Program-made: the position numbers and the translations under genes
Shown: positions 23,287 through 46,104 of the stretch, piece after piece
Layout of the letters: every line of letters starts with the position of its first letter
Position numbering within the stretch: position 1 is the stretch's first letter
Assembly: GCA_003990705.1 (NCBI GenBank)
Contig: AP018318.1
Coordinates: 2,855,501 to 2,919,500 of the forward strand
Origin: Nostoc sp. HK-01
GTDB taxonomy: Bacteria > Cyanobacteriota > Cyanobacteriia > Cyanobacteriales > Nostocaceae
Length of the DNA stretch: 64,000 bases
Reading direction: 5' to 3'
The notes under the pieces: model-generated
What the model saw: the letters and a program-made list of their open reading frames with translations, nothing else
The model's database searches: none
What the model was told of the DNA's origin: nothing

Positions 23287-24618
23287 ATGATTAATACAGA
23301 GTATTTGTCACGCTTTTATAAAGCATGTAACCCTAGCTACGCGCTGAACATGAGCGATCGGCTTGATCAGCAGTACTATATAGATTTCGCCAATGTACGT
23401 GGCTGCAAAATTGTCGAAGAATTGCAACGTACAATCAGCCGTATTTCTCCCGATGAACCTACCTGTCAGTTATTTACAGGTCATATTGGTTGTGGTAAAT
23501 CTACAGAATTACAACGCCTCAAAGCAGAACTAGAAGCTGTAGGATTTCATGTAGTTTACTTTGAATCTAGTCAAGACTTGGATATGGCGGATATCGATGT
23601 CAGCGATATTTTACTGAGTGTAGCTCGTCAAGTCAGCGCTAGTTTAGAAGCAATTAAGATCCAAGTTCAACCACATTACTTTATCAATCTCTTCAAAGAA
23701 ATTGGAGATTTTTTGCAAAGCCCTATAGAACTTTCTGGACAAGCAGAGTTGTCCTTGGGAATTGCGAAAATTACAGCCAAAACCAAAGATAGCGCCCAGG
23801 TACGAAATCAACTCAGGCAATATCTAGAACCACGCACTAATAGTATTTTGCAAGCAATTAACGAAGAGGTTCTAGAAAAAGCTGTTGAACAACTTAAACT
23901 CAGAGGTCAAAAAGGTTTAGTTGTTATTGTTGATAATTTAGATCGAGTAGATATGCGTCCTTTAGCATCTGGGCGGACACAACCAGAATATCTGTTCATA
24001 GACCGAGGTGAACAATTACGCCGCCTCAAATGTCATGTAGTCTACACTATTCCCCTAGCGTTAATTTTTTCTAATGAGTATGAAACACTCAAAAACCGCT
24101 TGGGTGGAGGTATTGCGCCTAAAGTATTACCAATGGTAAGAGTTAGGCAAAGAGATGGTAGTGACTATGAACCAGGGATGTTACTACTGCGCCAGTTAGT
24201 TTTAGCCAGAGCTTTTCCAGAAGTTTCCTACAACGAAAGGCTGTCGTTAATCACAGAATTATTTGAGTATCCTGAAACCCTCGACCGTTTATGTCGTGTG
24301 AGTGGCGGCCACATCCGTAACTTATTAGGATTGCTATATAGCTGTCTGCAACGGCAAGATCCTCCTTTTTCTGGGGACTGTTTAGAAGCAGTAATTAAAG
24401 ACTATCGAGATGACTTGCTATTAGCTATTGATGAATATCAGTGGGAACTACTATTTGAGGTTGTACAACAGCAGAGCGTAAAAGGAGAATCTGAGTATCA
24501 AAGCTTGCTGCGAAGTATGTATTTATTTGAATACCGCGATCCTGTTGGTCGTTGGTTTGGGATTAGTCCAGCATTAGCAGAGACAGAAAAAGTTATTGCT
24601 TGGCAGCAAAAAATATAA
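23287..24618 (+). CDS. P-loop ATPase of a two-gene ATPase/STAND-WD40 module
   Basis: A protein of 443 residues. Walker A GHIGCGKST is at 65-73 and Walker B LVVIVDNLDR at 211-220. VVYTIPLALIF may hold a sensor element. The N-terminus (YKACNPSYALNMSDRLDQQYYIDFANVRG) precedes the P-loop as in AAA-type STAND-like ATPases. Its closest relative in this window is the ATPase at 42942: they share TGHxGCGKST, an [VI]-R-x(5)-Q-x(4,5) helix, the VI[VI]D[ND]LD Walker B, YTIP, SGG followed by L, and a C-terminal LFEYRD/LEYRN element. The partner gene follows after 116 bp. The function is unknown; sensing or switch activity coupled to the partner is an inference. Confidence 0.75.
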   Translation: MINTEYLSRFYKACNPSYALNMSDRLDQQYYIDFANVRGCKIVEELQRTISRISPDEPTCQLFTGHIGCGKSTELQRLKAELEAVGFHVVYFESSQDLDMADIDVSDILLSVARQVSASLEAIKIQVQPHYFINLFKEIGDFLQSPIELSGQAELSLGIAKITAKTKDSAQVRNQLRQYLEPRTNSILQAINEEVLEKAVEQLKLRGQKGLVVIVDNLDRVDMRPLASGRTQPEYLFIDRGEQLRRLKCHVVYTIPLALIFSNEYETLKNRLGGGIAPKVLPMVRVRQRDGSDYEPGMLLLRQLVLARAFPEVSYNERLSLITELFEYPETLDRLCRVSGGHIRNLLGLLYSCLQRQDPPFSGDCLEAVIKDYRDDLLLAIDEYQWELLFEVVQQQSVKGESEYQSLLRSMYLFEYRDPVGRWFGISPALAETEKVIAWQQKI

Positions 24619-24734
24619 TCGTACTGAGTGAGCTAATAGTTATTAGCATCAGTCATTAGTCCATCTTCATTTGACTAGTGACTAATTTATAATGAGCAAT
24701 TTTTCCTGTTGAGGCTGTATTCCGGTTTTGAGAT

Positions 24735-27700
24735 ATGACAAAATCCCCGTTCACAGTAGAGAGTGTTAATCATAATAAGAATTCTCTGCAAAGGTTAGTG
24801 CGCTCAATCAAGCTTTCTAAAGGCCAATTTGCTCTTATTCTTGTGCGATGTAACTATCAGCAATTAAGAGAGCAAATGCTAGAAAATATTCGCTCTCTGA
24901 CAAAAGATATAAACTTACAAGAAATCTATCTCCAACCAGCAACTAAAGCTTTACATACAACAATCATTACAAAATTAAGTCTAGATCATCCTGCCGTAAT
25001 TACAGATTCTCTACCATCAGCAGTCATGGTTTTTGGTTTAGAGTCAATTCTGGCACTGGAAGACTTATTAACGAGTCTTAATCAAGCTAGAGATATCTAT
25101 ACAGCAACTTTTCCTTTTCCTGTGGTGTTGTGGCTACAAGATGAAGTAGCAACAATGCTGACCAAACTAGCACCAGATTTCAAAAGTTGGGCTGCCACTA
25201 CTATTAAGTTTGAATTGTCAAAAGAAGATTTAATTGCCTTAATACGTCAAGAGACAGAATCACTGTTTGCTAAATTTTTAGAAGCAGGTGCGGAAAAATT
25301 TTTATCTAACGCTGCTCTTGATTTAGCACCTAAATCACAACATCGTCACGAAATTGAGTCTGCCAGAAATGATTTACTACGTCTGTATAGTGTTCAACTA
25401 GAGCCAGGGTTAGAAGCTAGTTTAGAATTTGTTTTAGGACGAGATAAATACGCTAGTGACCAAATTAATAGTGCATTAGCTCATTATCAAAGAAGCTTAA
25501 GTTTATGGCAGAGAGAGGCTAAACGAGAAAATGAAATAGTTCAAAAAATAGAAGTATTAGATGAAAAATTAGAACATAATTATGCTTACAGAATTCGACA
25601 GGCAATAGTCTTATTCCATGTGGGTCTATGTTATCGCCGTATGGCTGACTTACATCAAATTACTAATAGTAACTATTGTCAACATGCTCTTTCATGGTTT
25701 CAGAGGTGTTTAGATTTATTAGAACAATTACAAAGACAAGATTTAGTAGCAAAATTTATTTTGCCTGCTTGTGAAATGCTGCAACGTTTAAAATATTTGG
25801 ATGAGCTAGAAGTATTAGCACAAAAGTCTTTACATCTACATGAAAGGTATGGAAATACTGCTAAAGTAGCACAAGATTATGGTTTTTTAGCAGATGTAGC
25901 AGCATCACGCAATAATTGGGTATTGGCGCATGAATTAGCTAATACCGCACTTTCTATTGCCGAATTAGCAACAGAAGTTTCTCGACAGCAGGAAAGTTGG
26001 TATCTTTTATTGTTGGCTCGGACTCAGAAACATTTAGGGCAATGGGAAGAAGCAATTAGTAATTTAGAATGGGCCAGGGTAGTTTGTGAACTACAGTATG
26101 AACCATCGCTATATTTAGAAATTTTAGAAGAATTGCGATCGCTCTACTTCTTTGAGCGCCATGATTATGCAGAAGCATTCAATCTCAAGCAAGAAAAAGT
26201 TCAAATAGAACACCAATATGGTTTTCGTGTATTTATTGGAGCCAGTCAATTACAGCCAAAACGCTACAGAATTAACCCTGTTTTAGAAACCCAAAAAATA
26301 TCATTTATCCCAGAAGATATCGCTCAAGAAATAGCTGCTTCTGGACGGCTGCAAGATGTTAACCGTTTAATTGAAAGAATTACCCGCGCTGATCATAAAT
26401 TAACTATCATACATGGACAATCAGGAGTTGGTAAAAGTTCAACTATTAAAGCTGGTTTAGTACCTGCTTTAAAGGGAAGAGTTATTGGTGAAAGGATTCC
26501 TTTACCGATTGTTTTATCAGGATATACAGATTGGGTAACAGCTTTGGGACGTAGTATCAACCAAACTTTAGCACAGTCAGAATTAGCAATTGCTGTAGAA
26601 TTTACACCTACTATCCTCATAGAAAAGCTACGTTTAGCAACTGAATGTAATCATATAATAGTTATTATATTTGACCAGTTTGAAGAATTTTTCTTTACCA
26701 GTAACTCCAGCCAAAGATTAGAATTTTATAAATTCTTCATTGCCTGTTTGAATATTCCTTATGTAAAAACAATTATTTCTTTAAGAGAAGATTATTTACA
26801 TTATTTGTTAGAATTTGAACGTTTTAGTAAAGAAAATAATGATTATTTATATGATTTAGGTGTAATTAATAAAAACATTCTCGATAAAGATATTCGTTAT
26901 TTTTTAGGTAAATTTTCTATAGAGGATACAAGAGGAATTATTTACAGTTTTACAAAACGCTCCCACTATGAAATGAGTGATGAATTAATTCATCAGCTAG
27001 TCCAGGATTTAGCTGGAGAATCAGGAGAAGTAAATCCAATCGAATTACAAATAGTTGGAGTGCAGTTACAAGCAGAAAATATCACGACACTCGAACAATA
27101 TAAAATTTGTGGTAGTTCAGCAAAGCTGGTCGAGCGCTGGCTTGAGGAAGTGATCAAGGATTGTGGCAAAGAAAATGAAGATTTAAGTTGGCAATTATTA
27201 TTTGAGCTAACTGATGAAAAAGGCTTTCGTCCCCTCAAGACTAAATCTGATTTAGCCATTGCTTTAGGAAAGAATATCCATACAACATCTGGCACAAAAT
27301 CAGACTGTGAGCTAATTCTCGAAATTTTAGTAGGTTCAGGTTTGATATTGCGGTTACGTGAAGAATTAGGCGATCGCTATCAATTAGTTCATGATTATTT
27401 GGTAGAGCCAATTCGTCAGAGAAATAGTTATGGCATAGTTGCTGAACTCGAAAAAGTCAAATCTGAAAAAAAACGCGCTGAAGTCGCACAAAAGCTTTCT
27501 CAAGAACATCTCAATTTAATTTTGCAAAGGCGGTTGCGAGAAGCACGCATAGCAGGTGTTGTGTTGGCAATTATGGGTGGAACTATTGCCGCTTTATGGT
27601 GGCAAGCCGACTTGCAAAAAAGAGCCGCAATTCGTCAAACAATTCGCGCCGAACGTAGTGAAACTAATTTGAAAATTAGTGCGATCGCCGCAACTAGTGA

Positions 27701-29741
27701 AGCTTTATTTGCTTCCAACAAAGAGTTTGATGCTCTTTTAGAAGGTTTACGCGCCTGGAGAAAGTTGAAACAAGCAGACGAAGTGTTACCAGAAACTCGA
27801 ATGCGTGTAGTAACTGCCTTACAACAGGCAGTTTATGGGGTGTCGGAGTTAAATCGTTTGGAAGGACACACTGATATTGTTTGGGGTGTTGCTTTTAGTC
27901 CCGATGGCAAGTTATTGGCTTCTGGTAGCCGCGATCAAACAGTAAAACTTTGGCGACCTGATGGAACTTTGCTACAAACCCTGAAAGGTCATACTGAGTC
28001 AGTCACCAGCGTGAGTTTTAGCCCCGATGGGCAAAGTCTCGCATCTTCCAGTCTCGACAAAACTGTACAAATCTGGCAGAAAAACCCAATTACGGGCGAA
28101 TTTGATTTACAACCAGCCAAAACCCTAGTAGACCGAGGCTGGGTTTATTGTGTGAGTTACAGTCCCGATGGAGAGTTGCTGGCGACAGGTAATAAAGATG
28201 CCACAGTCAAACTTTGGCGTAAGGACGGTACTTTAGTCAAAGTTCTGAAAGGACATCAAGGGTGGGTAAATTGGGTCAGTTTCAGCCCTGATGGTCAATT
28301 AATTGCTTCAGCTAGTGACGATCGCACTGTAAAAATTTGGCGACGCGATGGCACACTAGTCAAAACACTTTCTGGACATCAAAATGGTGTAACTGTTGTG
28401 ACTTTTAGTCCTGATGGGCAAATGATTGCTTCAGCAGGTAGAGATAAAATTATCAAATTGTGGCAGCGACAGCCAAATAGTGATGATAACTTTGACTTTC
28501 AAGCTTATAAAAATTTAGAGCAGCATACTAGTACAATTTGGAGCCTGAATTTCAGCATTGATGGGCAAAGGTTAGCGTCAGGAAGTGATGACAATACTGT
28601 TAACCTCTGGAGTAGCACCGGCACATTACTCAAAACCTTTAAAGGCCATAGTGATGCGGTGGCTAGTGTGGCTTTTAGCCCAGATAACAAAATATTGGCA
28701 TCAGGAAGTTATGACAAAAGTGTCAAAATTTGGAGTTTGGATGCACCAACATTACCAATTTTGCGGGGGCATCAAGATAGAGTTTTGAGTGTTGCATGGA
28801 GTCCTGATGGGCAGATGTTGGCTTCTGGTAGCCGCGATCGCACCGTGAAACTTTGGCAAAGAGAAACAATTCGTGGCGAAGCCACAACCCGACTTTACAA
28901 AACTTTAGTAGGGCATACAGATAAAGTTCCGAGTGTGAGTTTTGACCCCTTCGGTGAACTGCTGGCATCAGGTAGTTATGACAAAACAGTAAAAATCTGG
29001 CGGCGGGATGGCACTTTACTCAAGACCTTGCAAGGACATACTGATAGTGTTATGAGTGTCAGTTTTAGTCCTGATGGCCAGCTATTAGCATCAGCCAGTA
29101 AAGACAAAACAATCAAACTGTGGAGCCGTGACGGTCAATTACTCACAACCTTGGTAGGACACCAAGGTTGGGTGAACAGCGTTAATTTTAGTCCTGATAG
29201 CCAGCTGCTTGCCTCTGCTAGTGATGATCAAACAGTCAAACTGTGGCGACGGGATGGTACTTTGGTCAAAACGTTTTCACCCCATGACAGTTGGGTATTG
29301 GGTGTTAGCTTCAGCCCTACTGACCAATTAATCGCTTCTGCTAGTTGGGATAACACTGTGAGATTATGGCGACGCGATGGTACTTTGTTAAAAACATTGT
29401 TAAAGGGCTACAGCGATAGTGTTAATTCCGTGACTTTCAGCCCTAATGGTGAATTACTGGCGGCTGCTAGTTGGGATAGCACAGTCAAACTGTGGAGTCG
29501 TGATGGCAAGTTAATTAAAACCCTGAATGGACATCGCGCCCCAGTCTTGAGTGTGAGTTTTAGCCCTGATGGTCATACATTAGCATCCGCAAGTGATGAT
29601 AACACAATCATTTTGTGGAATTTGCATTTGGAAGACTTACTGTTGCGTGGTTGTAACTGGGCAGACAATTACCTTAGTCACAACCATAATGTTGAAGAAC
29701 GCGATCGCTTTTTGTGTGATGGCATTAGTCCTGGCCAGTAA
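24735..29741 (+). CDS. Giant multidomain protein: degenerate N-terminal domain, TPR-like helices, nSTAND1-type NTPase, TM segment, 14 WD40 repeats
   Basis: A protein of 1668 residues. Residues 1-165 form a domain with FPFPVVLW and APDFKSW (126-152), shared with the protein at 44224. Residues about 225-490 are helical, TPR-like. An NTPase follows, with Walker A GQSGVGKSS from about 561 and Walker B IIFDQFEEFF around 645, as in novel STAND NTPase 1. A hydrophobic stretch (about 941-957) suggests membrane anchoring. Residues about 1041-1635 hold 14 WD40 repeats, enough for two seven-bladed propellers. STAND proteins with propellers usually act as signal-gated assembly switches. It is encoded 116 bp after its ATPase partner. 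No toxin or nuclease domain is recognised, so the output is unknown. Confidence 0.85.
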   Translation: MTKSPFTVESVNHNKNSLQRLVRSIKLSKGQFALILVRCNYQQLREQMLENIRSLTKDINLQEIYLQPATKALHTTIITKLSLDHPAVITDSLPSAVMVFGLESILALEDLLTSLNQARDIYTATFPFPVVLWLQDEVATMLTKLAPDFKSWAATTIKFELSKEDLIALIRQETESLFAKFLEAGAEKFLSNAALDLAPKSQHRHEIESARNDLLRLYSVQLEPGLEASLEFVLGRDKYASDQINSALAHYQRSLSLWQREAKRENEIVQKIEVLDEKLEHNYAYRIRQAIVLFHVGLCYRRMADLHQITNSNYCQHALSWFQRCLDLLEQLQRQDLVAKFILPACEMLQRLKYLDELEVLAQKSLHLHERYGNTAKVAQDYGFLADVAASRNNWVLAHELANTALSIAELATEVSRQQESWYLLLLARTQKHLGQWEEAISNLEWARVVCELQYEPSLYLEILEELRSLYFFERHDYAEAFNLKQEKVQIEHQYGFRVFIGASQLQPKRYRINPVLETQKISFIPEDIAQEIAASGRLQDVNRLIERITRADHKLTIIHGQSGVGKSSTIKAGLVPALKGRVIGERIPLPIVLSGYTDWVTALGRSINQTLAQSELAIAVEFTPTILIEKLRLATECNHIIVIIFDQFEEFFFTSNSSQRLEFYKFFIACLNIPYVKTIISLREDYLHYLLEFERFSKENNDYLYDLGVINKNILDKDIRYFLGKFSIEDTRGIIYSFTKRSHYEMSDELIHQLVQDLAGESGEVNPIELQIVGVQLQAENITTLEQYKICGSSAKLVERWLEEVIKDCGKENEDLSWQLLFELTDEKGFRPLKTKSDLAIALGKNIHTTSGTKSDCELILEILVGSGLILRLREELGDRYQLVHDYLVEPIRQRNSYGIVAELEKVKSEKKRAEVAQKLSQEHLNLILQRRLREARIAGVVLAIMGGTIAALWWQADLQKRAAIRQTIRAERSETNLKISAIAATSEALFASNKEFDALLEGLRAWRKLKQADEVLPETRMRVVTALQQAVYGVSELNRLEGHTDIVWGVAFSPDGKLLASGSRDQTVKLWRPDGTLLQTLKGHTESVTSVSFSPDGQSLASSSLDKTVQIWQKNPITGEFDLQPAKTLVDRGWVYCVSYSPDGELLATGNKDATVKLWRKDGTLVKVLKGHQGWVNWVSFSPDGQLIASASDDRTVKIWRRDGTLVKTLSGHQNGVTVVTFSPDGQMIASAGRDKIIKLWQRQPNSDDNFDFQAYKNLEQHTSTIWSLNFSIDGQRLASGSDDNTVNLWSSTGTLLKTFKGHSDAVASVAFSPDNKILASGSYDKSVKIWSLDAPTLPILRGHQDRVLSVAWSPDGQMLASGSRDRTVKLWQRETIRGEATTRLYKTLVGHTDKVPSVSFDPFGELLASGSYDKTVKIWRRDGTLLKTLQGHTDSVMSVSFSPDGQLLASASKDKTIKLWSRDGQLLTTLVGHQGWVNSVNFSPDSQLLASASDDQTVKLWRRDGTLVKTFSPHDSWVLGVSFSPTDQLIASASWDNTVRLWRRDGTLLKTLLKGYSDSVNSVTFSPNGELLAAASWDSTVKLWSRDGKLIKTLNGHRAPVLSVSFSPDGHTLASASDDNTIILWNLHLEDLLLRGCNWADNYLSHNHNVEERDRFLCDGISPGQ

Positions 29742-29785
29742 AGATTTCAGTTGATCAAACCAAGAGCGATCGCTTTGCAAATTTT

Positions 29786-30100
29786 TTAATCGCTGTTTTC
29801 TTTCATCACCTCTGGTAGCAAATTTTCTAGAAAAGCTTTGAGTCTCATCCTCTCAATGTAAGGCCAGCCACCCTCAGACTCAATATCTTTCAGTAGTGAG
29901 TAAAGTTGCTGGCGATTATCGGGCAGACTCTCCTGAAAAACACCATCCCGAATTGCTCGATGTAAATACTCCAACTGCCGCAGCAAGTTTAAAAGAGCGA
30001 GTGGATCTCCTTGGCAATCCCTCGCTACATCATTCACTGCTGAGGCAATTTTTTCCAATTCCTCAGAAAAATCTGTCGATTCAAAACTTTTGTTGCTCAT
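29786..30100 (-). CDS. Small conserved-type protein, function unknown
   Basis: A protein of 104 residues from the ATG at 30100, which follows AGAGAGAG. A TTG at 30133 would add 11 residues but has no ribosome-binding site. The protein is helical and acidic: SEELEKIASAVNDVA, PLALLNLLRQLEYLHRAIRDGVF and YIERMRLKAFLENLLPEV look like three or four amphipathic helices. No family was identified. It is convergent with the WD40 gene, with 44 bp between the stops. Confidence 0.65.
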   Translation of the reverse strand: MSNKSFESTDFSEELEKIASAVNDVARDCQGDPLALLNLLRQLEYLHRAIRDGVFQESLPDNRQQLYSLLKDIESEGGWPYIERMRLKAFLENLLPEVMKENSD

Positions 30101-34610: not shown

Positions 34611-37600
34611 ATGGAACACTGGCAATTTCTCATCCAGAAACAGGGCGATCGCTCTTGGCACACCTTGGAATCGCCAAATATACAAATTTTAGAAGGTCGG
34701 TATAGAGTTTTAGCTCGTTCTGACCTTCCCAATACGGATGTGGAAGTGCGGGTAACTCACTCTTCAACTCAAGAAGTTCCCCCTAAACGGCGAATTCAAA
34801 AGCAATCGCGGCGCACTACCTCAGAAGGTTTAATGGCGGTAATTCCCTTTACGCTCCTCAAGCCGGGAATATGGGAATTACGTTGTTCTGGCGATTTGAT
34901 GTCAGATATTTTTGGTAAATCATGGCAACAGAGTGTCTATCTGCAAGTCTTGTCTACTTTGGCAGATGGCGAAATCGATAAATTAGCGGGTGGTGGCAAT
35001 TTAGAGTCAAATTCTCAGGAATTTTTCATGGTTCCCTTGCCATACACACAAAATTTTGATGAGCTAGACAGTAGTGTTGGTAAACAGCCGATTTCTCTAG
35101 GTTCAGAGTCTCATACACAGAGCAATTTAGTTACTAACGAACTTTCTGCCGAAATTGCATCAATAGCCAGTGATGATACTGTTCTCACAACAGCAGAAGA
35201 ATTCCCTGCTACTGATGCGGTTGTCAGTGAAGAAGCTTTACCTACAAGCGATCGCATTCCCACCACCATAGAAGAATTCCCTGCTACTGATGCGGTTGTC
35301 AGTGAAGAAACTTTACCTACAAGCGATCGCATTCCCACCACCATAGAAGAATTCCCTGCTAGTGACTCGGTTATTAGTGAAGAAGCTTTACTCACAAGCG
35401 ATCACATTCCCACCACCACAGAAGAATTCCCTGCTAGTGACTCAGTTATTAGTGAAGAAACTTTACCTACAAGCGATCGCATTCCCACCACCATAGAAGA
35501 ATTCCCTGCTAGTGACTCGGTTATTAGTGAAGAAGCTTTACTCACAAGCGATCACATTCCCACCACCACAGAAGAATTCCCTGCTAGTGACTCGGTTATT
35601 AGTGAAGAAGCTTTACCTACAAGCGCTCGCATTCCCACCACCACAGAAGAATTCCCTGCTAGTGATGTGGTTATTAGTGAAGAAGCTTTACCTACAAGCG
35701 ATCGCATTCAAACCGCCACAGAGGAAATTACTGATAGCGAACTGTCTGTCGAAGAAACTGTAGTAACGGATGAACACACTCTGTCAGTCGTCAGAGAAGA
35801 AATTCCTGATAGTAGTTTGGTGATTTCTCAACTGTCTGCTGAAAAATATGAAGATGGAATGATCGATCAGCCTGTTAATCCGGTATGGCTGAAAGGTGAA
35901 ACGGCAGAGCAAATATTACAAAGTTTAATAGATCAAGCTTTACCTACCTCATTATTAGAGGATGAACAGCTTGAAGAAGTGGAAACGATACAACCCGTAC
36001 CACCTCTCAGGCTGGCTTTAGAGCAAGAAAACTATATTGCTCGTTGGGGACAAGGACTGAGTATTAATGCTTATGTAGAGTTACAAACACAGCCAAATCT
36101 GGAAGATGAGCCACAGTACTCAACTACTTTTCATGCACTAGAGGTCAAAATTGAGCTACGCTCACCTTTGAGTTCGGGAATTTTAGCTCAGGTACGGCAA
36201 CCTTTAGCAGATAATTTACTGCCTTTTACGATTAACTCTGCTATTAATATTCCGATTGATTGTGAATCTAAGCTGCTTTTGGGCGAACTAAGTTTATATG
36301 GCGCGATTAGTGATTTTGATGATGTCATACTTTTAGCTAGTCACTCTTTTACAATTACGGCGGATGTAACAGAATTACTGGCGATGGCAGCAGTGACTAA
36401 ATCTAGTCAGCAAAACTTTTTAGATAACTCTAGCGCTGTAGGGGTTTCTCCACCAAATCAAGAGCCAGAAACATCGGTAAGTTTGGGTTTGGAACTTTTT
36501 AACCTTGTGAAAACTTCTTTAACACAACCTCAAACTATTTTGCCATCGCCGAACCAGCCTTTACCAGAACAAATTAATCTGTTTTCTCTCAAGAAATCAG
36601 GAGATTTGCGATCGCCACAACTACCGCAATTGCCAAAGTTCCCAGAAAATCAAACTAGTGCGATCGCCATTAACGATGATCTCACAGAGGTGACTGCGGA
36701 AGGGAAGGAGGAAATTGAGTCGCAAGATAATGCTTTACTATCCCAAACTACAATCCCCTTAGCACCCATTAACTTGGAACAGCTATCAATTAGAACTCGT
36801 CCTGGATGGATGCTGGGTAATATCTTCCCTTATCTCAAACGCCTCAAAAGTGTTCCGGTTGAGACAACAGAAGAGACAAATAATTTACTAGATGTATCTG
36901 AACCTGCGATCGTTGAAGATTCTTTAGCAAATGTATCTGAACCTCTAATAGCTGAAGATTCTTTAGCAAATGTGTCTGAACCTCTAATAGCTGAAGATTC
37001 TTTAGCAAATGTATCTGAACTTCTAATAGCTGAAGATTCTCTGTTAGTTGAGCCAGCGATTACAGCGGATGAGAACCTAGATGTAGATGATTCTGTGCTT
37101 GAAACGTCAGTTTCGACCAATTCTGAGTTATTTGCTGTGTCTATGCTACAAATGGCTGTCACACCAAGTTTAGAATTTAGTGATGACTCCATCTCAGAAC
37201 CTGCTGCTCCTTTAAGTTCGGAATTGATAGCAGAGGTTAATCCTTACTCATCACCGTTAATTAGGAAGTGGATGCAGAGCCAAGGATACGTTGTACCTGA
37301 ACTTCCACCTGTACCAGAGCAAAATCATCAAATTGAGGTCGTAGAGCCGGAAATTGCTCCGGTGGAGGAGGAAGCAATAGAGTCTGACTTATTCATCCCA
37401 AGTGTTGATGTTCAATTGTCATCAAATCTAGATACGGATTTAGAAAATCTCGATGGTGAATCAGAGGAAAATATTGAAGAACAGAGCAGTTTGGGTACCT
37501 CTGAACCTCAAGATGACACGGAGACTAGCATAATTACTGAGGAATCTGAGGAGTTAAATATCTCAGCAGAAGTTGAAACAGAAAATATTCCGCAAGAATT

Positions 37601-38156
37601 GTCTACCTATTCATTGCCATTAACCCAGCTACCGCTGACTCAAAAGATTAAAATACCGAGAGCTTGGTTAGGGCAAGAGATTGTTGTTGATGATACTTAT
37701 AGTGACCCCGAAGAGGATTTTGCTGGAGAGCAAAAACAGCAGTCAATCTCGGCTGTATCGAACTCATTACCTTTGGATGGGGAAATGCTTGAGGCTTTAC
37801 CTACTCCTCAACTGTATATACCAGAAGGTGAACTGATTGCGGGCCAGTCTGTGCGTGTGCGTGTAGAACTACCTGAAGTTCCTCCACAGGTGGTGGTGAA
37901 ATTATGGATTGAGGATTGCCAAACTCGTGGGTTATTAGATGGCCCTCATTTATTAAAAGATTTGCTACCGAAAGCTTTGGGTGGTGTAGAGGTGATGACT
38001 CAAATCAATATTCCTTTCGGCTGTGTGGAAATTCGCTTAGAGGCGATCGCATTCCATCCCTCTACTCAGCAGGAAAGTCACAAAGCAACAACTGTGCGGA
38101 CTGTAATTCCCCCAGACTTGCCAAATTATCAGTTAGATGAATTGCTGGGTTTGTGA
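34611..38156 (+). CDS. Large acidic repeat protein of unknown function
   Basis: A protein of 1181 residues. An N-terminal beta-rich domain (about 1-125; MEHWQFLIQKQGDRSWHTLE ... GIWELRCSGDL) and a C-terminal beta domain (about 1065-1165; LYIPEGELIAGQSVRVRVELP ... IRLEAIAFHP) flank a long, very acidic and probably disordered middle. The middle contains seven tandem 25-residue units (196-370) and four 13-residue units (762-813). A further ordered part (about 458-590; LRLALEQENYIARWGQGLSINAYVEL) resembles the N- and C-terminal strands and may be a repeated beta domain. There is no signal peptide or transmembrane helix, so it appears to be cytoplasmic. Start ATG 34611. Function unknown. Confidence 0.8.
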   Translation: MEHWQFLIQKQGDRSWHTLESPNIQILEGRYRVLARSDLPNTDVEVRVTHSSTQEVPPKRRIQKQSRRTTSEGLMAVIPFTLLKPGIWELRCSGDLMSDIFGKSWQQSVYLQVLSTLADGEIDKLAGGGNLESNSQEFFMVPLPYTQNFDELDSSVGKQPISLGSESHTQSNLVTNELSAEIASIASDDTVLTTAEEFPATDAVVSEEALPTSDRIPTTIEEFPATDAVVSEETLPTSDRIPTTIEEFPASDSVISEEALLTSDHIPTTTEEFPASDSVISEETLPTSDRIPTTIEEFPASDSVISEEALLTSDHIPTTTEEFPASDSVISEEALPTSARIPTTTEEFPASDVVISEEALPTSDRIQTATEEITDSELSVEETVVTDEHTLSVVREEIPDSSLVISQLSAEKYEDGMIDQPVNPVWLKGETAEQILQSLIDQALPTSLLEDEQLEEVETIQPVPPLRLALEQENYIARWGQGLSINAYVELQTQPNLEDEPQYSTTFHALEVKIELRSPLSSGILAQVRQPLADNLLPFTINSAINIPIDCESKLLLGELSLYGAISDFDDVILLASHSFTITADVTELLAMAAVTKSSQQNFLDNSSAVGVSPPNQEPETSVSLGLELFNLVKTSLTQPQTILPSPNQPLPEQINLFSLKKSGDLRSPQLPQLPKFPENQTSAIAINDDLTEVTAEGKEEIESQDNALLSQTTIPLAPINLEQLSIRTRPGWMLGNIFPYLKRLKSVPVETTEETNNLLDVSEPAIVEDSLANVSEPLIAEDSLANVSEPLIAEDSLANVSELLIAEDSLLVEPAITADENLDVDDSVLETSVSTNSELFAVSMLQMAVTPSLEFSDDSISEPAAPLSSELIAEVNPYSSPLIRKWMQSQGYVVPELPPVPEQNHQIEVVEPEIAPVEEEAIESDLFIPSVDVQLSSNLDTDLENLDGESEENIEEQSSLGTSEPQDDTETSIITEESEELNISAEVETENIPQELSTYSLPLTQLPLTQKIKIPRAWLGQEIVVDDTYSDPEEDFAGEQKQQSISAVSNSLPLDGEMLEALPTPQLYIPEGELIAGQSVRVRVELPEVPPQVVVKLWIEDCQTRGLLDGPHLLKDLLPKALGGVEVMTQINIPFGCVEIRLEAIAFHPSTQQESHKATTVRTVIPPDLPNYQLDELLGL
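35196..35720 (+). repeat. Seven tandem 75-bp coding repeats
   Basis: Each unit encodes 25 residues of the form EEFPA[TS]Dx[VI][VI]SEE[AT]LPTS, then D[RH]IPTT[IT]. Units 3 and 5 encode identical peptides, and the 3-4 pair resembles 5-6, suggesting a 150-bp duplication. The unit begins at GAAGAATTC. Confidence 0.93.
36894..37049 (+). repeat. Four tandem 39-bp coding repeats
   Basis: Units encode VSEPLIAEDSLAN (13 residues) with small changes; the second and third differ by a single base. They are in the same gene as the 75-bp array but unrelated in sequence to it. Confidence 0.92.
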
Positions 38157-39070: not shown

Positions 39071-39079
39071 GATCTCAAA

Positions 39080-39328
39080 CTACTTTCCGATAAATTTTTC
39101 AACTTGCTGTTTGGCTTCATAACGATTCTTCACAATTGGCACTTCTTGCCGTGTTTGTGTGTAATATTCGTTAGGGCGAGGTGTGCCAAATACATCATAA
39201 GCCAGCCCAGTGCTAACAAATAGCCAGCCTGCAATAAATAATGCTGGGATGGTGATGCTGTGAATTACCCAATAACGAATGCTGGTAATAATGTCCGAAA
39301 ATGGACGTTCTCCAGTGGTACCTGACAT
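39080..39328 (-). CDS. psbE: Cytochrome b559 alpha subunit
   Basis: An 82-residue protein. The haem-ligand histidine is in [14 protein letters not shown], near the N-terminal end of the only transmembrane helix. The lumenal tail includes [19 protein letters not shown], conserved in PsbE. First gene of psbEFLJ, 120 bp downstream of ycf48 on the same strand, an order widely conserved in cyanobacteria and plastid ancestors. AGGTAGGGA precedes the ATG. Confidence 0.98.
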
Positions 39329-39448
39329 TTAGATCCCTACCTTCACAAAGACTGTTATTGAGTTTATTATCCTACAAAGTTTAGAAAGAGTTACAAGTTG
39401 CAACGCACTTCTCATAAATCAGCGTGAACACCTAAACTTTCGCTAGGT

Positions 39449-40471
39449 CTAAGCGGCTTTTTCGGGAGTAGATTTTTCTGCATTGGCGTTATATTTCAGC
39501 AAGACACCGCGATCGCCAATAATAAATCCTTGTTCTGGCTTGAGAAACACTATCTTATATAGATTAGCGGCTACCTGTTCCACATCTCGATCTTTCTCCC
39601 AGGTTTTACCACCGTCAGTACTCCGCAATAAATTACCGCTACCGCCGCCTATCCATAGTTCTTCCGGTGTGCGATATGCCAAATCCAGTAAACCCCAACT
39701 GGTGGATAACTCTGGATATACAGCTTCTTGCCATTCTTCGACGTTATTGGGTTCGCTAAATTGAATCTGACCACCCCGCGCTAATAACCACAGTTGGCCA
39801 TGATCATTGAAACCCATGTTTTCTACCCGCCGAGAACTAATGCGGTTATGGGGAACCCAAGCATTTTGTCCTGGTTCCCAAGTTGAGTAAAAGCTCCCCT
39901 TGGCGGAAACAGCAACATATTTGCCATCAGCAGAACGTTGCATATTGCGAACTACGCCGACGGCTGCTTCTACCTGGGCTTTCCAATTTTTACCGCCATC
40001 GGTGGTTTTGTAAATTGCGCCTACATCAGTAGCCATTTCCGCTGAGTCAGTTCCCAGCGCATGAACAGTAATTGGATTACCTGGTAACTTTTCGCTCAAA
40101 GGAATCCGTGACCAAGAACGGCCTTCATCGGTGGTATGTAGCAGTAGCGAGGGTTCGCCGACAATCCAGCCTTCTTCCCCAGAAAAACTTACGGAGTCAA
40201 AGCGATACCGAGAATCGTCTAATGCTAAAGACAAGGGTTGCCAATTTTTACCCCCATCTTTGGTTTCTAAAAGCGTGGCGTTGCTTCCTACTAAAAAACC
40301 ATGCTGAGAATCTTGCGTAAAAGCAATATCCAGCAACTTCTCGTTGGTTGGTACAGTGATGATTTCCCAAGGGTTGAAGCTAGTGGAAGGCACTTTGCTA
40401 CAACCTATACACAAAACAACTACTATCAAAAAGGCAATTATGCGTTGCCAGCTTCTCACAATGGGCTGCAT
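39449..40471 (-). CDS. ycf48: Photosystem II assembly factor Ycf48 (HCF136 homologue)
   Basis: A 340-residue protein. It binds newly made D1 and helps form the reaction-centre complex. The signal region ends in VVVLCIGC, lipobox-like with C24, consistent with a lipidated lumenal protein. The rest is a seven-bladed propeller with recurring TxDGGKxW/TDEGRSW motifs. It stands between rubA and psbE in the conserved rubA-ycf48-psbEFLJ cluster, which brings together factors for making photosystem II reaction centres. Confidence 0.95.
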   Translation of the reverse strand: MQPIVRSWQRIIAFLIVVVLCIGCSKVPSTSFNPWEIITVPTNEKLLDIAFTQDSQHGFLVGSNATLLETKDGGKNWQPLSLALDDSRYRFDSVSFSGEEGWIVGEPSLLLHTTDEGRSWSRIPLSEKLPGNPITVHALGTDSAEMATDVGAIYKTTDGGKNWKAQVEAAVGVVRNMQRSADGKYVAVSAKGSFYSTWEPGQNAWVPHNRISSRRVENMGFNDHGQLWLLARGGQIQFSEPNNVEEWQEAVYPELSTSWGLLDLAYRTPEELWIGGGSGNLLRSTDGGKTWEKDRDVEQVAANLYKIVFLKPEQGFIIGDRGVLLKYNANAEKSTPEKAA

Positions 40472-40561
40472 CAGTATTTCTTAGTGTTTTCTAATTTCGT
40501 TTAGGTTTTACCCCAGAGATGCGATCGCTCTCTAGAATTAGGTAAAAAAAGATAGCGGGTC

Positions 40562-40897
40562 TTATTGTAAGCCGTAAAGACTGATAAAGAACAAGAACGC
40601 CAGAGCCAAAGCCCCAAAAATCAAGATATTCTTTTGCCCTGGAGTGAGCTTATTAACACCCAAACCAAAACCGAGATTTTCTTTAAAACCAGATGCTGTA
40701 CCAGATGGGCCAATGTTGGTAAAAGCAGTTTTCTTGGCACTACAAACTGGACAACGCCAATTTACAGGCAGTTCTGTAAACAGTGTCCCTGAAGGGATAT
40801 CATGCTTATCATCTCCCTTCTCAGGTTCATAAACATAACCGCAGGCGCGACACTCATAGCGGTCTAACGCTGGAGTCTCAACAGCTTGTTCGCTCAT
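40562..40897 (-). CDS. rubA: Membrane-anchored rubredoxin RubA
   Basis: A 111-residue protein from the ATG at 40897, which has GGGAG nine bases upstream. An in-frame start at 40972 would add 25 hydrophobic, non-conserved residues with no ribosome-binding site. The iron site is C16-x2-C19 (YECRACGY) and C49-x2-C52 (WRCPVCSA). A C-terminal helix (about 91-109) anchors it in the thylakoid membrane. RubA is required for photosystem II accumulation, probably early in D1/D2 assembly. ycf48 follows 90 bp downstream. Confidence 0.95.
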   Translation of the reverse strand: MSEQAVETPALDRYECRACGYVYEPEKGDDKHDIPSGTLFTELPVNWRCPVCSAKKTAFTNIGPSGTASGFKENLGFGLGVNKLTPGQKNILIFGALALAFLFFISLYGLQ

Positions 40898-41093
40898 GGC
40901 TAAGGTCTCCCAGAGGGGAATTATTAAATATACGTTAAAAATTATGACATAACTGTTAGACTTTTCTATCACTTACACAAACGAATCAAATACCTGAAAT
41001 CCGTCTGTTTCCCAGATTTCAGAAAACTCGAAAAGATATAATGTAAAAGAAATGTAACAGCGTTATTCACACCATAAGCGGTAGAAATTCATT

Positions 41094-41456
41094 GTGTTTG
41101 TCCTCAGCGGTTACGAGTACTTTCTAGGCTTCTTAATTATCTGTAGCCTAGTGCCAGCCCTAGCGCTTTCTGCTTCCAAGCTTCTCAGACCCAGTGGTAA
41201 CAGCCTGGAACGCCTCACAACTTATGAATCTGGGATGGAACCAATTGGGGGAGCCTGGATTCAGTTCAACATCCGCTACTACATGTTTGCGCTGGTCTTC
41301 GTCGTCTTTGACGTAGAAACCGTGTTCCTATATCCTTGGGCGGTGGCTTTTCACCGTTTAGGGCTATTAGCATTCATTGAAGCGCTAATTTTTATTGCAA
41401 TTCTTGTAGTTGCCTTAGTTTACGCATGGCGTAAAGGAGCTTTGGAATGGTCTTGA
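41094..41456 (+). CDS. ndhC: NAD(P)H-quinone oxidoreductase subunit 3 (NDH-1)
   Basis: A 120-residue protein with a GTG start. It has three transmembrane helices and the conserved loop [20 protein letters not shown], which lies near the quinone site. Subunit of the photosynthetic NDH-1 complex, used in respiration and cyclic electron flow. It overlaps ndhK by ten bases. The rubA promoter region lies back to back with this operon (about 200 bp between starts). Confidence 0.97.
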
Positions 41457-42181
41457 ATTCTGATCTAAGCACCCAAGACAAAGAGCGAATCATCAACCCT
41501 ATTGAGCGTCCGACAGTCACTCAAGACCTTTCAGAAAATATTATCTTGACAACGGTTGATGACCTCTACAACTGGGCTAGGCTTTCGAGTCTTTGGCCTT
41601 TACTATTTGGTACAGCTTGCTGCTTTATTGAGTTTGCAGCTTTAATTGGCTCACGGTTTGACTTTGACCGCTTTGGGTTAATTCCCCGTTCTAGCCCCCG
41701 TCAAGCTGATTTGATTATTACTGCCGGCACAATCACCATGAAGATGGCACCCCAGTTAGTGCGTCTTTATGAACAAATGCCTGAGCCAAAGTATGTGATT
41801 GCGATGGGTGCTTGTACAATTACTGGCGGGATGTTCAGCGTGGATTCTCCGACAGCTGTACGCGGAGTTGATAAATTGATTCCGGTGGATGTGTATTTGC
41901 CTGGTTGTCCTCCCCGTCCCGAAGCGATTATTGATGCGATCATTAAGCTGCGGAAGAAAATTGCTAATGATTCCATGCAAGAACGTGATCAATCTAAGCA
42001 AACCCACCGCTTCTATAGTACGACTCATAACTTGAAGCCAGTAGCAGAAATTTTAACTGGTAAGTATATGCAGTCAGAAACTCGCTTCACTCCACCAAAA
42101 GAATTGACAGAAGCAATTGGTCTACCAGTACCACCTGCGCTGCTAACTTCCAAAACCAAGGAGGAACTGAACCGTGGCTGA
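41447..42181 (+). CDS. ndhK: NAD(P)H-quinone oxidoreductase subunit K (NDH-1)
   Basis: A 244-residue protein. C58 and C59 (GTACCFIEF), C123 (GACTITGG) and C154 (PGCPPRPEA) are the ligands of the N2 4Fe-4S cluster that passes electrons to plastoquinone. It overlaps ndhC by ten and ndhJ by eight bases, which suggests translational coupling. The C-terminal extension after about residue 175 ([22 protein letters not shown]) is usual in cyanobacteria. Confidence 0.97.
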
Positions 42182-42701
42182 TGAAGAATCTAAACCAGTA
42201 CCAGCAGGGGAAGATGCTTTAGTTCCATCTGGGCCGATTTCTCAGTGGTTGGCAGAAAATGGCTTTGATCATGAGTCTTTAGCGCCTGATAAAAATGGGG
42301 TAGAGATTATTAAAGTCGGGCCAGAATTTTTGCTCCCCATTGCTACAGCTTTGTATGCTTATGGGTTTAATTATCTCCAGTTTCAATCTGGTATTGACCT
42401 TGGCCCAGGACAGGATTTGGTCAGTGTGTATCACTTAGTCAAAGTTGGTGATAATGCTGATAGACCTGAAGAAGTGCGAGTTAAGGTATTTCTCCCACGG
42501 GAAAATCCTACGGTGCCTTCAGTATATTGGATTTGGAAAACTGCCGACTGGCAAGAACGTGAAAGCTACGATATGTTCGGCATTATCTACGAAGGACACC
42601 CAAATCTGAAGCGGATTTTAATGCCGGAAGATTGGGTGGGTTGGCCTTTGCGGAAGGATTATGTCTCGCCTGATTTTTACGAGTTGCAAGACGCTTATTA
42701 G
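42174..42701 (+). CDS. ndhJ: NAD(P)H-quinone oxidoreductase subunit J (NDH-1)
   Basis: A 175-residue protein with a GTG start inside the end of ndhK. The 30-kDa subunit signature [20 protein letters not shown] followed by [16 protein letters not shown] is intact. It forms part of the hydrophilic arm of NDH-1 with NdhH, NdhI and NdhK. Last gene of ndhCKJ. A hairpin with a distal T-run follows at 42749. Confidence 0.97.
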
Positions 42702-42748
42702 GTAGTGCTGAGTCTCAGTTGGTGAGAATTTTGATGTCTCATTCCTAA

Positions 42749-42784
42749 CCCTTCTCCGGTGACGGAGGAGGGTAATGTTTTTTT
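42749..42784 (+). terminator. Probable terminator of ndhCKJ
   Basis: CCCTTCTCC and GGAGGAGGG form nine pairs (one G-U) with loop GGTGAC. A T7 run begins five bases after the stem, slightly further than usual. Confidence 0.65.
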
Positions 42785-42815
42785 AACGCGGAGGAATGGG
42801 GAGGTTGGCGCAGCG

Positions 42816-42856
42816 AAAAGTTGCGTGCGGGGGTTCCCCCCGTTGAGCAAACTTTT
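42816..42856. repeat. GC-rich palindromic element downstream of ndhJ
   Basis: AAAAGTT...GGGGGTTCCCCC...AACTTTT: outer arms of seven bases and an inner GGGGG/CCCCC stem. It differs sharply in composition from its surroundings. It resembles dispersed palindromic repeats that I recall from Nostoc genomes, but only one copy is in this window. Confidence 0.6.
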
Positions 42857-42941
42857 CAAGACAGAGGTACGCGGAGGGGGATGTTCTACTTTGGCGAGGA
42901 TGCGTGATGATATGAATAGTTAAGTTGTACAGTGATGTCTT

Positions 42942-44234
42942 ATGTCTGATGAATTATTAAAGTCTTTTCAGCAAGCATATAGAAATTTAGAGTTATTACC
43001 ACTCATTGAGACAAAAGATTTAGATAGATTTAGGGTGAATTATGGTGATGAGGTAATTGAGGAATTAGAGCAGTTAGTCGAAGATAGTCCTAATGGTGAT
43101 GGCAAGATTATTTTTACCGGACATCGTGGTTGTGGTAAGTCTACTTTGTTGGCTGAGTTTAGTAGAAGAACACAAAACCGTTATTTTGTAGTTTTATTTT
43201 CAATTTCCGACACAATTGAAATGTCAGATGTTAATCACATCAATATTTTATTTGCGATCGCTGTTAATTTAATGTACGAGGCAGAAGCCCGTAGAGTCGA
43301 AATTCCTAAGTCTGCGAAAGATGCTTTTTATAAGTGGTTTGCTAGTCGCACTAAGACAGAAGAATTTAATATTGAGGCTGAAACTTCACTTGGGTTTGAT
43401 TTGCTCAAGTTGATTAGTAATAAGTTAAAGGCTGATGCGGCTGTTCGCTATGAAATTAAGCAAGAGTTTGAGAGAAAAATTTCTGATTTAATTGCTCGGA
43501 TTAATGAAATAGCTGCCGTTATTCATGTAGCTACTAGAAAAGATGTTTTAGTGATTATTGATGATTTAGATAAATTGGAACTAGAAAGGGTAAATGACAT
43601 ATATAGAGACAATATTAAAACTTTATGTCAACCAAATTTTAGAATTATTTATACACTGCCTATTGCTGTATTAAGAGATAAGTTTCTCAGACGACTGATT
43701 GAGACGGAAACTAATGATCAAGTTGTAGTTATGCCTGTGTTAAAGTTATTTGAACAAGGGCAAAGTCGTCAGGTTGGTGCAAAGCCTCGACCGCAAGCAG
43801 AGAATATTTTGTGTGAGATCTTACAAAAACGAATTGCATCTGAACTTATAGAAAAACAAACGGCAGAAAAGATTGTTTTAAATAGCGGTGGGGTGTTGCG
43901 AGAATTGGTGAGAATTGCGAATGAATGCTGTCGTATTTGTCTGCGATTAATTAGGCGTAAACCTGGACAAGCTGTGGTGATTGATGAGCAAATTTTAGAT
44001 GAAGCGGTTAACAATATTCGTAATGATTTTGCTGTGCCTTTGGGGAAACTGGATTATGGCATCTTGCAAACCACATATAACAACTTTATGCCTGATGATC
44101 CGAGAGATTCTGAGTTTTTAGATTTGCTCCACGGACTTTATATTTTGGAATATCGCAACCGTAAGAACTGGTACGATGTTCATCCAATTGTTGTAGAACT
44201 CTTGAGAGACCGGGGGTTAATCAATGACAGCTAA
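42942..44234 (+). CDS. P-loop ATPase of a two-gene ATPase/TPR module
   Basis: A 430-residue protein. Walker A GHRGCGKST is at 60-68 and Walker B DVLVIIDDLDK at 201-211. It also has IIYTIPIAVL and the C-terminal LLHGLYILEYRNRKNWYDVHP. It is a paralogue of the ATPase at 23287, with the same order of motifs and nearly the same length. A 430-residue core plus a coiled middle (about 160-195) fits AAA-like STAND-type ATPases. It overlaps the next gene by 11 bases, which implies coupled synthesis. Role unknown; regulation or powering of the partner TPR protein is inferred from the repeated pairing in this window. Confidence 0.78.
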   Translation: MSDELLKSFQQAYRNLELLPLIETKDLDRFRVNYGDEVIEELEQLVEDSPNGDGKIIFTGHRGCGKSTLLAEFSRRTQNRYFVVLFSISDTIEMSDVNHINILFAIAVNLMYEAEARRVEIPKSAKDAFYKWFASRTKTEEFNIEAETSLGFDLLKLISNKLKADAAVRYEIKQEFERKISDLIARINEIAAVIHVATRKDVLVIIDDLDKLELERVNDIYRDNIKTLCQPNFRIIYTLPIAVLRDKFLRRLIETETNDQVVVMPVLKLFEQGQSRQVGAKPRPQAENILCEILQKRIASELIEKQTAEKIVLNSGGVLRELVRIANECCRICLRLIRRKPGQAVVIDEQILDEAVNNIRNDFAVPLGKLDYGILQTTYNNFMPDDPRDSEFLDLLHGLYILEYRNRKNWYDVHPIVVELLRDRGLINDS

Positions 44235-46104
44235 TGAACTATTTGAAGATGGAGAAAATCAAGATATTTATGATGATTTAATTGTTTCTATCGAGGCTAA
44301 AGCACATCGATTAAATTTGCTAATTGCTGTTTGTGATGATGCTAGTTTTAGGGATGAGATTATTGCTCAATATGAGGCAGAATTACAGCCGCAAATTCGT
44401 TGCTTTCGGGTGATATTGGCAAGGGGCGAACCAAGTTTGAGGGCTGCTGTTGCTAAACTAGTGGAATCTGAAGAATATTTGCAGCAACATAACCCAGCAG
44501 TAATTAGTGTGACTGGTGCAGAACAGCTTCATTTTTTGAAGTTGGGGGAGGAACGTTCAGAACAAGAGATTTTTTTCGGTTATTTGCAGTGGACTAGAGA
44601 AGGGTTAAGAGAATTTCCTTTTGCAATTGTCTTGTGGGTGACTAATCAAATATTAGTTGAGTTAATTAAAAAAGCGCCTGATTTTTGGAGTTGGCGCAAT
44701 GGTGTTTTTCGGTTTGCGTCTAGAAGGAAAAACACTGTTTCTGCGAGAGAATTAGAGACGATTCGGTTTGCTTTTACAGGTAATGAATTATCTGGCTATG
44801 ACAATGACAATGATTATTTATTACCTATAGAAGATTTGCAAGGGTTTATTCAAAATTTAGAACAGCGCGGTGTTAAAGATACAACTTTAGCGACTTTATA
44901 CTTTAATTTAGGAGATATTTATAGAAAAAGACTCAATCGGAGCGAGTGTCAAGATTATAAAAAAGAGCAAGAATTAGGCATTAAGTATTTAAACAAAGCT
45001 GTAGAATTGCAAAAAGAATTAGGTTTAGAAAAAGACTTAGCCAGCAGCCTCAATAATTTAGCATTACTCTACGAATCCCAAGGCAGATACAGCGAAGCGG
45101 AACCTTTGTACATTCAAGCTTTGTCACTGTATCGCAAACTCCTGGGTGAAGAACATTCCGATATCGCCACTAGCCTCAACAATTTAGCCGCACTCTACGA
45201 ATCCCAAGGCAGATACAGCGAAGCAGAACCCTTGTACATTAAAGCTTTGGCACTGACGCGTAAACTCCTGGGTGAAGAACATCCCGATATCGCCACTAGC
45301 CTCAACAATTTAGCCGCACTCTACGATTCCCAAGGCAGATACAGCGAAGCGGAACCTTTGTACATTCAAGCTTTGGCACTGTGGCGTAAACTCCTGGGTG
45401 AAGAACATCCCGATGTCGCCACCAGTTTCAACAATTTAGCGGGACTCTATCGTTCCCAAGGCAGATACAGCGAAGCGGAACCTTTGTACATTCAAGCTTT
45501 GGCACTGAGGCGTAAACTTCTGGGTGAAGAACATCCCGATGTCGCCACCAGTTTCAACAATTTAGCATTCCTCTACGATTCCCAAGGCAGATACAGCGAA
45601 GCGGAACCTTTGCACATTCAAGCTTTGGCACTGAGGCGTAAACTCCTGGGTGAAGAACATCCCTCTGTTGCCACCAGTTTCAACAATTTAGCTAATCTCT
45701 ACAAATCCCAAGGCAGATACAGCGAAGCGGAACCCTTGTACATTCAAGCTTTGGCACTGAGGCGCAAACTCCTGGGTGAAGAACATCCCTCTGTTGCCAC
45801 CAGCCTCAACAATTTAGCCGCACTCTACAATTCCCAAGGCCAATACAGCGAAGCGGAATCTTTGTACATTCAAGCTTTGGCACTGTATCGCAAAATCCTG
45901 GGTGAAGAACATCCCGATGTCGCCACCAGCCTCAACAATTTAGCAGTACTCTACTATTCCCAAGGCAGATACAGTGAAGCCGAACCTTTGTACATTCAAG
46001 CTTTAGATATTTTTGAGCGACGCTTAGGGGTAGATCATCCAAATACTATAACTGTACATAAAAATTTAGCAGATTTGCGCGATCGCCTATCCTCAGAACA
46101 ATAA
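44224..46104 (+). CDS. TPR protein with N-terminal domain shared with the STAND-WD40 partner
   Basis: A 626-residue protein whose ATG lies inside the end of the ATPase gene. Residues 1-165 contain FPFAIVLWVTNQ (131-142) and APDFWSW (151-157), matching residues 126-152 of the protein at 24735. Residues 221-265 form a helical, TPR-like unit. Residues 271-606 are eight 42-residue kinesin-light-chain-type TPRs, with a partial ninth. The repeats are nearly identical except at a few fixed positions. TPR arrays bind peptides or proteins, so this may be the recognition part of the module. No effector domain is visible in either gene. Confidence 0.82.
   Translation: MTANELFEDGENQDIYDDLIVSIEAKAHRLNLLIAVCDDASFRDEIIAQYEAELQPQIRCFRVILARGEPSLRAAVAKLVESEEYLQQHNPAVISVTGAEQLHFLKLGEERSEQEIFFGYLQWTREGLREFPFAIVLWVTNQILVELIKKAPDFWSWRNGVFRFASRRKNTVSARELETIRFAFTGNELSGYDNDNDYLLPIEDLQGFIQNLEQRGVKDTTLATLYFNLGDIYRKRLNRSECQDYKKEQELGIKYLNKAVELQKELGLEKDLASSLNNLALLYESQGRYSEAEPLYIQALSLYRKLLGEEHSDIATSLNNLAALYESQGRYSEAEPLYIKALALTRKLLGEEHPDIATSLNNLAALYDSQGRYSEAEPLYIQALALWRKLLGEEHPDVATSFNNLAGLYRSQGRYSEAEPLYIQALALRRKLLGEEHPDVATSFNNLAFLYDSQGRYSEAEPLHIQALALRRKLLGEEHPSVATSFNNLANLYKSQGRYSEAEPLYIQALALRRKLLGEEHPSVATSLNNLAALYNSQGQYSEAESLYIQALALYRKILGEEHPDVATSLNNLAVLYYSQGRYSEAEPLYIQALDIFERRLGVDHPNTITVHKNLADLRDRLSSEQ
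45034..46041 (+). repeat. Eight tandem 126-bp TPR-coding repeats
   Basis: Each 42-codon unit reads D[IV]ATS[LF]NNLAxLYxSQGRYS, then EAEPLYIQALALxRKLLGEEHP. Even synonymous sites are largely the same between units, which points to recent expansion or gene conversion. Confidence 0.95.

Follow-up and report, generated by a model that had tools for sequence, protein, structure and literature searches.

Two-gene modules of an ATPase and a P-loop-less, putative docking protein with exchangeable C-termini in Nostoc sp. HK-01 and other cyanobacteria

Active ATPases of the AAA+/STAND type have been described together with inactive relatives in several systems. In nSTAND2 systems (Kaur et al. 2021, PMC8195603), adjacent STAND-type genes encode one active protein and one with eroded NTP-binding motifs plus variable modules, and the products are predicted to form a hetero-multimer. 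In ternary systems with MoxR and vWA components, the inactive iSTAND or iSTAND2 protein is thought to coordinate sensing with the active AAA+ ATPase, and these systems are concentrated in cyanobacteria among others (Kaur et al. 2020, PMC7159879, and 2021, PMC8195603). In BREX, the active AAA+ protein BrxC binds the small inactive STAND-like BrxB (-PglZ), according to PMC13326643 and PMC12839542. Here we describe two modules, A and B, in a stretch of 64,000 nucleotides of Nostoc sp. HK-01 (AP018318.1, positions 2,855,501 to 2,919,500; hereafter the window). Each consists of an ATPase gene followed on the same strand by the gene of a partner protein, which opens with a P-loop-less domain that we call, after its proposed role, the docking domain. 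An earlier note made from the sequence alone had described both modules, and its claims are considered along with the results.

Module A comprises ATPase A (23287..24618, + strand, an open reading frame (ORF) of 443 amino acids (aa)) and partner A (24735..29741, +, 1668 aa). Module B comprises ATPase B (42942..44234, +, 430 aa) and partner B (44224..46104, +, 626 aa), whose first 11 bases are also the last 11 of ATPase B. Both ATPases are AAA+ proteins (ORC/STAND-like), with Walker A motifs read from the sequence at 23479..23505 and 43119..43145 (both +). With 23% identity and E=1e-22, residues 39-432 of ATPase A align to residues 35-419 of ATPase B, in agreement with the homology along the whole length claimed earlier. 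KAP_NTPase (PF07693) is matched by ATPase A with 30.6 bits, above the Pfam gathering cut-off of 20 bits, and borderline by ATPase B with 20.3 bits. Many KAP NTPases carry membrane helices inserted in the P-loop domain.

Significant similarity between the two partners (21% identity, E=3e-07) is confined to about 170 N-terminal residues. The docking domain covers residues 14-172 of partner A (24774..25250, +), without Walker A, and residues 12-176 of partner B (44257..44751, +), a predicted AAA+ core without P-loop. That the same domain opens both proteins, as the earlier note had held, is not due to chance, which is excluded by six copies within the genome and by the profile search of 386 genomes described below. 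Partner A continues with a TPR-like region (25335..26294, +, approximate bounds), an nSTAND1 NTPase domain (26343..27404, +; PF20703, E=2.6e-26, 93.6 bits against a cut-off of 27.1), a weak transmembrane (TM)-like segment at residues 937-955 (27543..27599, +; score 1.74, threshold 1.7) and a region of 14 WD40 stretches (27843..29684, +, approximate bounds). In partner B a tandem TPR array follows (45040..46004, +), with 7.7 copies of a unit of 126 bp (42 aa); nSTAND1 was not among the Pfam matches listed for this protein. The different repeat ends stated in the earlier note are thus present, with nSTAND1 and 14 WD40 stretches in A and TPR in B, but the contrast is not complete. Since partner A gave a weak TPR_12 match between docking domain and nSTAND1 (28.7 bits, below the cut-off of 30.1), TPR is probably common to both partners. 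No effector domain was seen in either module by domain scans.

The two-gene family is real and widespread. We searched 386 cyanobacterial genomes, sampled evenly from the phylum, with profiles of the docking domain (A1) and the ATPase (A2); up to nine domain and four ATPase candidates were scored per genome, and the best 150 matches per profile were listed. The domain was found in 90 genomes and the ATPase in 89. The earlier note had tied its idea to co-occurrence of the two beyond chance: 83 genomes hold both, seven only the domain, six only the ATPase and 290 neither (Fisher p=4e-68, kinship ignored). Each occurs in 54 of 142 genera, and 74 of the 90 domain-bearing genomes belong to the order of the window. 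Four of the six ATPase-only genomes have matches at E of about 2e-4 to 5e-4, one at 1e-5 and one at 2e-100. For adjacency, 116 regions from the 150 listed ATPase matches were examined, comprising all 69 from other families and 47 of the 77 from the family of the window (own genome excluded), and an ORF with the docking domain was counted as partner if it lay no more than 2.5 kb downstream on the same strand. It directly follows 100 of 121 ATPase ORFs, some of which are fragments, with three partners counted twice. An independent search of genome contigs with ATPase B gave 21 B-type loci, all with a partner, one of them cut by the contig end. Many cyanobacteria carry several such modules, in which the active ATPase is usually paired with a P-loop-less docking protein.

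Single-protein searches of the 7.5-Mb genome of Nostoc sp. HK-01 itself revealed four ATPases of the family at E of 1e-16 or better; two further places at E of 0.09 and 0.7 were set aside from this count. A docking-domain protein follows all four on the same strand, which gives modules A and B of the window and modules C and D at positions 4.66 Mb and 0.44 Mb of contig 1, respectively. Partners C and D belong to the nSTAND1 kind, and WD40 repeats were recognised in them by eye. In partner C (L034 3938-9824, −) the WD40 part is split over two ORFs (1487 aa and 394 aa), and the gene is probably broken or frame-shifted. Two more docking-domain genes have no adjacent ATPase and encode a stand-alone domain of 165 aa and a protein of 735 aa with TPR-like repeats (by eye); a CHAT gene lies about 6 kb upstream of the latter. 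Across the six copies of this genome, ten columns of the docking domain are invariant. Stand-alone docking-domain genes of 165-168 aa without adjacent ATPase were noted at L036 (5531-6028), L239 (4191-4685) and L240 (4257-4760), the first two adjoining a similar secreted-hydrolase-like gene (by eye).

ATPase and docking domain co-evolve. For 94 adjacent pairs from 64 genomes, the tree distances of the two correlate with r=0.72. When partners were shuffled within genomes only (52 pairs, 22 genomes), the mean r was 0.43 and the maximum 0.67, and none of 2000 shufflings reached the observed value; therefore, paralogous ATPases stay matched to their own partners. The P-loop has been lost from the docking domain. 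A Walker A motif occurs after this domain in 109 of 110 domain entries from partners above 850 aa (duplicates kept). Scanned alone against Pfam, the docking domain gave no match even at E=10, and no NCBIfam or PADLOC family covered it among the matches listed for whole partners. Against PDB sequences, the docking-domain profile had no match at E of 10 or below, and the ATPase profile reached E=0.049 at best. The models predict an AAA+ fold with lost P-loop for the docking domain: TnsC is among its best fold matches, and those of the ATPase B model include TnsC, RdrA, BrxC and CED-4.

Behind the docking domain, the fetched partners carry nothing, TPR only, TPR-nSTAND1 or TPR-nSTAND1-WD40, and one carries TPR-nSTAND1-PAS-HisKA-HATPase-receiver. 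Five consist of the docking domain alone (156-163 aa). At L114, L126 and L128, ftsQ-linked ATPases are followed by such a domain alone (160-163 aa) without repeats. Together with the adjacency found above, these C-terminal types bear out the earlier idea of a constant ATPase and adaptor domain with swappable ends. The constant part is conserved and the repeats turn over: over their first 215 residues, 20 B-type rows share 56-89% identity with partner B, and 18 of 19 complete B partners hold 2 to 10 TPR units by a simple pattern, L033 (244 aa) having none. The seven 42-residue units of partner B share a mean identity of 83% in protein and 87% in DNA. By simple hydropathy, a TM-like segment lies within 250 residues after nSTAND1 in 69 of 86 distinct nSTAND1 partners and before the end of nSTAND1 in none of the 86. 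Because these segments follow nSTAND1, the WD40 part may lie across or at the membrane. Against this placement count the segment of partner A, which barely exceeds the threshold, and partner D (outside the 86), which has a second, earlier hydrophobic stretch at residue 881.

We consider it probable, with some reserve, that each module is a two-protein, ATP-driven sensing switch. The product of the first gene would be an active AAA+ ATPase of ORC/Cdc6-STAND type, the C-terminal part of which resembles a winged helix as judged from the sequence by eye, the model being poor there. The second gene would open with the P-loop-less AAA+ domain that docks one ATPase subunit, so that active and inactive AAA+ units could form a mixed assembly. 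The remainder of the second protein would be the sensor, either TPR alone (B) or TPR, nSTAND1, membrane-proximal segment and WD40 propellers (A). A ligand bound to the repeats would change the state of nSTAND1 or TPR, alter the ATPase assembly and pass the signal onward. A possible output is visible in some relatives as TIR on the ATPase, as histidine kinase-receiver on the partner or as a MoxR-vWA locus. Since no effector domain is seen in the window modules, any output of theirs would be exerted either in trans or by the ATPase itself.

Several results weigh against this switch. The fold models of ATPase and docking domain are middling, with mean predicted local distance difference test scores of 68.2 and 67.5, and query-normalised Foldseek TM-scores range only from 0.33 to 0.47 (docking domain) and from 0.20 to 0.36 (ATPase). 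Because profile-profile comparison found no sequence homology of the docking domain to the ATPase or to nSTAND1, its AAA+ assignment is carried by the predicted structure on its own. Pairing is also not universal. An adjoining partner was not detected for 21 of the 121 ATPase ORFs; five of these are no more than 500 bases away from a contig end, and eight belong to a solo type beside aroE (L121, L122, L123, L127, L129, L138, L139 and L146). The eight form a clade with two further leaves (support 1.0), and five of their genomes, as well as G336 of this clade, have a partner-type gene at a distance from all listed ATPases. Distance profiles matched solo ATPases and solo partners only ambiguously, and some docking domains likewise lack an adjoining ATPase. 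Origin of the docking domain by duplication of the ATPase was considered as well and is unsupported by the same profile-profile comparison.

As to what is switched, the sensing or conflict role proposed in the earlier note finds its leads in relatives. On contig 20 of genome G024 and on plasmid4 of Calothrix sp. NIES-4101, the latter found in a plasmid collection, the gene order is ATPase, ATPase-TIR, partner, and the partners carry two tandem docking domains matching the two ATPases. In G167 and on a plasmid of Nostoc sp. C057, the ATPase domain is fused to other domains and adjoins MoxR-like and vWA/SAV_2336-type components; MoxR and vWA genes are present at the related loci L226 and L245. 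A conjugative Acaryochloris plasmid bears the pair beside CHAT, NB-ARC and TIR genes, and an acidobacterial plasmid bears a distant ATPase followed by a TPR protein that weakly matches part of the docking domain. These TIR fusions, MoxR-vWA loci and plasmid copies suggest a conflict role in relatives. Among 136 neighbours of pairs (198, one up and one down per pair, minus 62 in housekeeping-linked loci), the PADLOC families matched numbered 138, versus 56 among 136 control ORFs, taken from 173 ORFs of 20 other stretches of the same genomes; matches were counted by family without per-gene totals. The top families were mad3 (five genes) as well as Cas12f/TnpB-like, Csx1 and mad8 (three each). 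For the window modules themselves, an anti-phage or programmed-cell-death function, in which the repeats sense an invader, the ATPase/nSTAND1 pair then assembles, and the cell is killed or arrested by an effector acting in trans, would also fit several divergent copies per genome, the DNA identity of the repeat units, which suggests recent amplification, and RdrA, BrxC and CED-4 as fold neighbours. We nevertheless regard it as rather unlikely, as neither module shows an effector domain and both lie beside ftsQ or ndhCKJ. In PADLOC-DB the ATPases have weak, partial matches only, the best of them at E 3.5e-07 across 65 residues, strong matches of the partners are confined to the WD40 and TPR parts, and no protein gave a whole-length defence match. 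Phage records held no match for ATPase A, and a search of 291 genomes of the order for ATPase-TIR, with up to three candidates scored per genome, gave only the query locus at full length among the matches listed.

The modules of the window lie beside core cell genes. FtsQ (POTRA_1, FtsQ-type; 21503..22354, −) is the divergent neighbour of module A, and ndhC-ndhK-ndhJ (41094..42701, +) lies upstream of module B; both neighbours recur near ATPases of the respective type in other genomes. Of 157 fetched loci, 25 have FtsQ close to the ATPase, from several families and three times outside the order, and 13 have ndhC-K-J, among them 11 of the 21 B-type loci. FtsQ distances correlate with ATPase distances at r=0.80 in a Mantel test on 26 loci, the window among them (0 of 2000 permutations); for NdhK versus ATPase the value is r=0.61 (13 loci, 3 of 2000). 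Of the 17 leaves in one group (support 0.87), 13 are ndh-linked ATPases; the ftsQ-linked ones fall into two supported groups, where they account for 15 of 16 and for 10 of 11 leaves, plus two others on an unresolved backbone, so that monophyly of all ftsQ-linked ATPases lacks support. From the correlated distances and these groups, both types look largely vertically inherited at fixed sites. Such inheritance is unlike a mobile defence island and argues against one, but not against a cell-death or standing immune role. It would suit vertically inherited sensors of envelope, division or respiration with the same switch design and without immunity, as would the histidine kinase-receiver output of one relative. 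This housekeeping role, too, appears unlikely to us, slightly more so than the anti-phage one: the ftsQ-linked ATPases form no single supported clade, 10 of the 21 B-type loci show no ndh gene within the stretch fetched, gene position alone is a weak guide to function, and plasmid copies and TIR fusions exist. Descent from a degraded TnsC/TniB-like transposition or DNA-targeting ATPase, with the partner once a target selector, seems very improbable. It would account for TnsC among the best fold matches of both domains, a weak TniB Pfam score of ATPase B (E=0.011) and the IS4/5-type transposase about 1.2 kb from module B. However, no transposase recurs at the loci looked at (no systematic search for TniQ or end repeats was made), positions are fixed, and the four pairs of the genome are dispersed. 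The role of the modules may lie in conflict or in core regulation. Tentatively, and as a possibility that we do not rate as an even chance, the modules may belong to a cyanobacteria-centred class of heteromeric AAA+/pseudo-AAA+ receptors. Each inactive docking domain would count in one dedicated ATPase (with two domains where two ATPases are encoded), one branch would have a membrane-anchored nSTAND1-WD40 arm, and a former conflict or cell-death switch would have become fixed beside ftsQ and ndhCKJ as a standing cell part. If the modules are switches of the kind proposed, a set of unannotated cyanobacterial TPR and WD40 proteins would be explained as sensor arms of one switch, the docking domain would predict which ATPase belongs to which sensor, and the adoption of immune-type switches as core regulators in cyanobacteria would become testable.

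The 18 kb given in the earlier note are correct as the distance between the two ATPases, but this closeness seems incidental. The same-genus genome G352 has retained it (about 19 kb), while it is absent from two other genomes of the family, G068 and G191, where the A-type locus lies about 1.7 and 2.6 Mb from the best B-like partner (assigned by length and score only). Directly after partner B, an imperfect 21-bp repeat array was observed (46128-46284), and just downstream on the opposite strand a PIN-domain toxin and Phd/YefM antitoxin pair (46413-47215, −). The transposase mentioned above adjoins this pair in two ORFs (47343-48202, +), the first of which matches DUF4096. The window further contains an acidic repeat protein of 1181 aa (34611-38156, +; 75-bp unit, 7.1 copies, 92% matches) and a protein (15571-17358, +) in which long tracts of Pro-Ala repeats and an end resembling PEP-CTERM were recognised by eye.

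The ATPase and its partner are a variant of the active-plus-inactive AAA+/STAND theme that is new as far as the literature was searched. The earlier note knew of no named system with this exact pairing, and no description was found in the PubMed Central literature searched. RdrA of RADAR and CED-4 resemble the ATPase model as two of its best fold matches. RdrA and STAND ATPases of the CED-4/Apaf-1 type are switches with their own sensor or effector and are not known to form an active/inactive AAA+ pair. The order of STAND and WD40 in partner A recalls Apaf-1, which PMC7159879 mentions. With BREX, the modules share an active AAA+ and an inactive STAND-like protein, and BrxC is a fold match of ATPase B. 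In contrast to BREX, the docking domain is fused to sensors; no PglZ or other BREX genes were recognised by eye around the modules, and the PADLOC scan of the four proteins gave no BREX model. The iSTAND and iSTAND2 systems likewise join an inactive component to an active AAA+ ATPase, and two related loci set the ATPase domain among MoxR-vWA genes. Here, however, the active partner is a KAP/ORC-like ATPase, and no MoxR or vWA ORF was recognised by eye beside the window modules. The nSTAND2 two-gene systems are similar in their adjacent active and inactive genes; in our modules adjacency and motif loss are observed and the fold is predicted. According to PMC8195603, their inactive member mostly carries GT4 or HEPN, neither of which was among the Pfam matches listed for the window partners and the relatives scanned, whereas TPR, nSTAND1-WD40 or a kinase is found here. 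The modules differ further in that the docking domain has no Pfam match and some types occupy fixed chromosomal sites. A design familiar from immune switches thus occurs here beside core cell genes as well.

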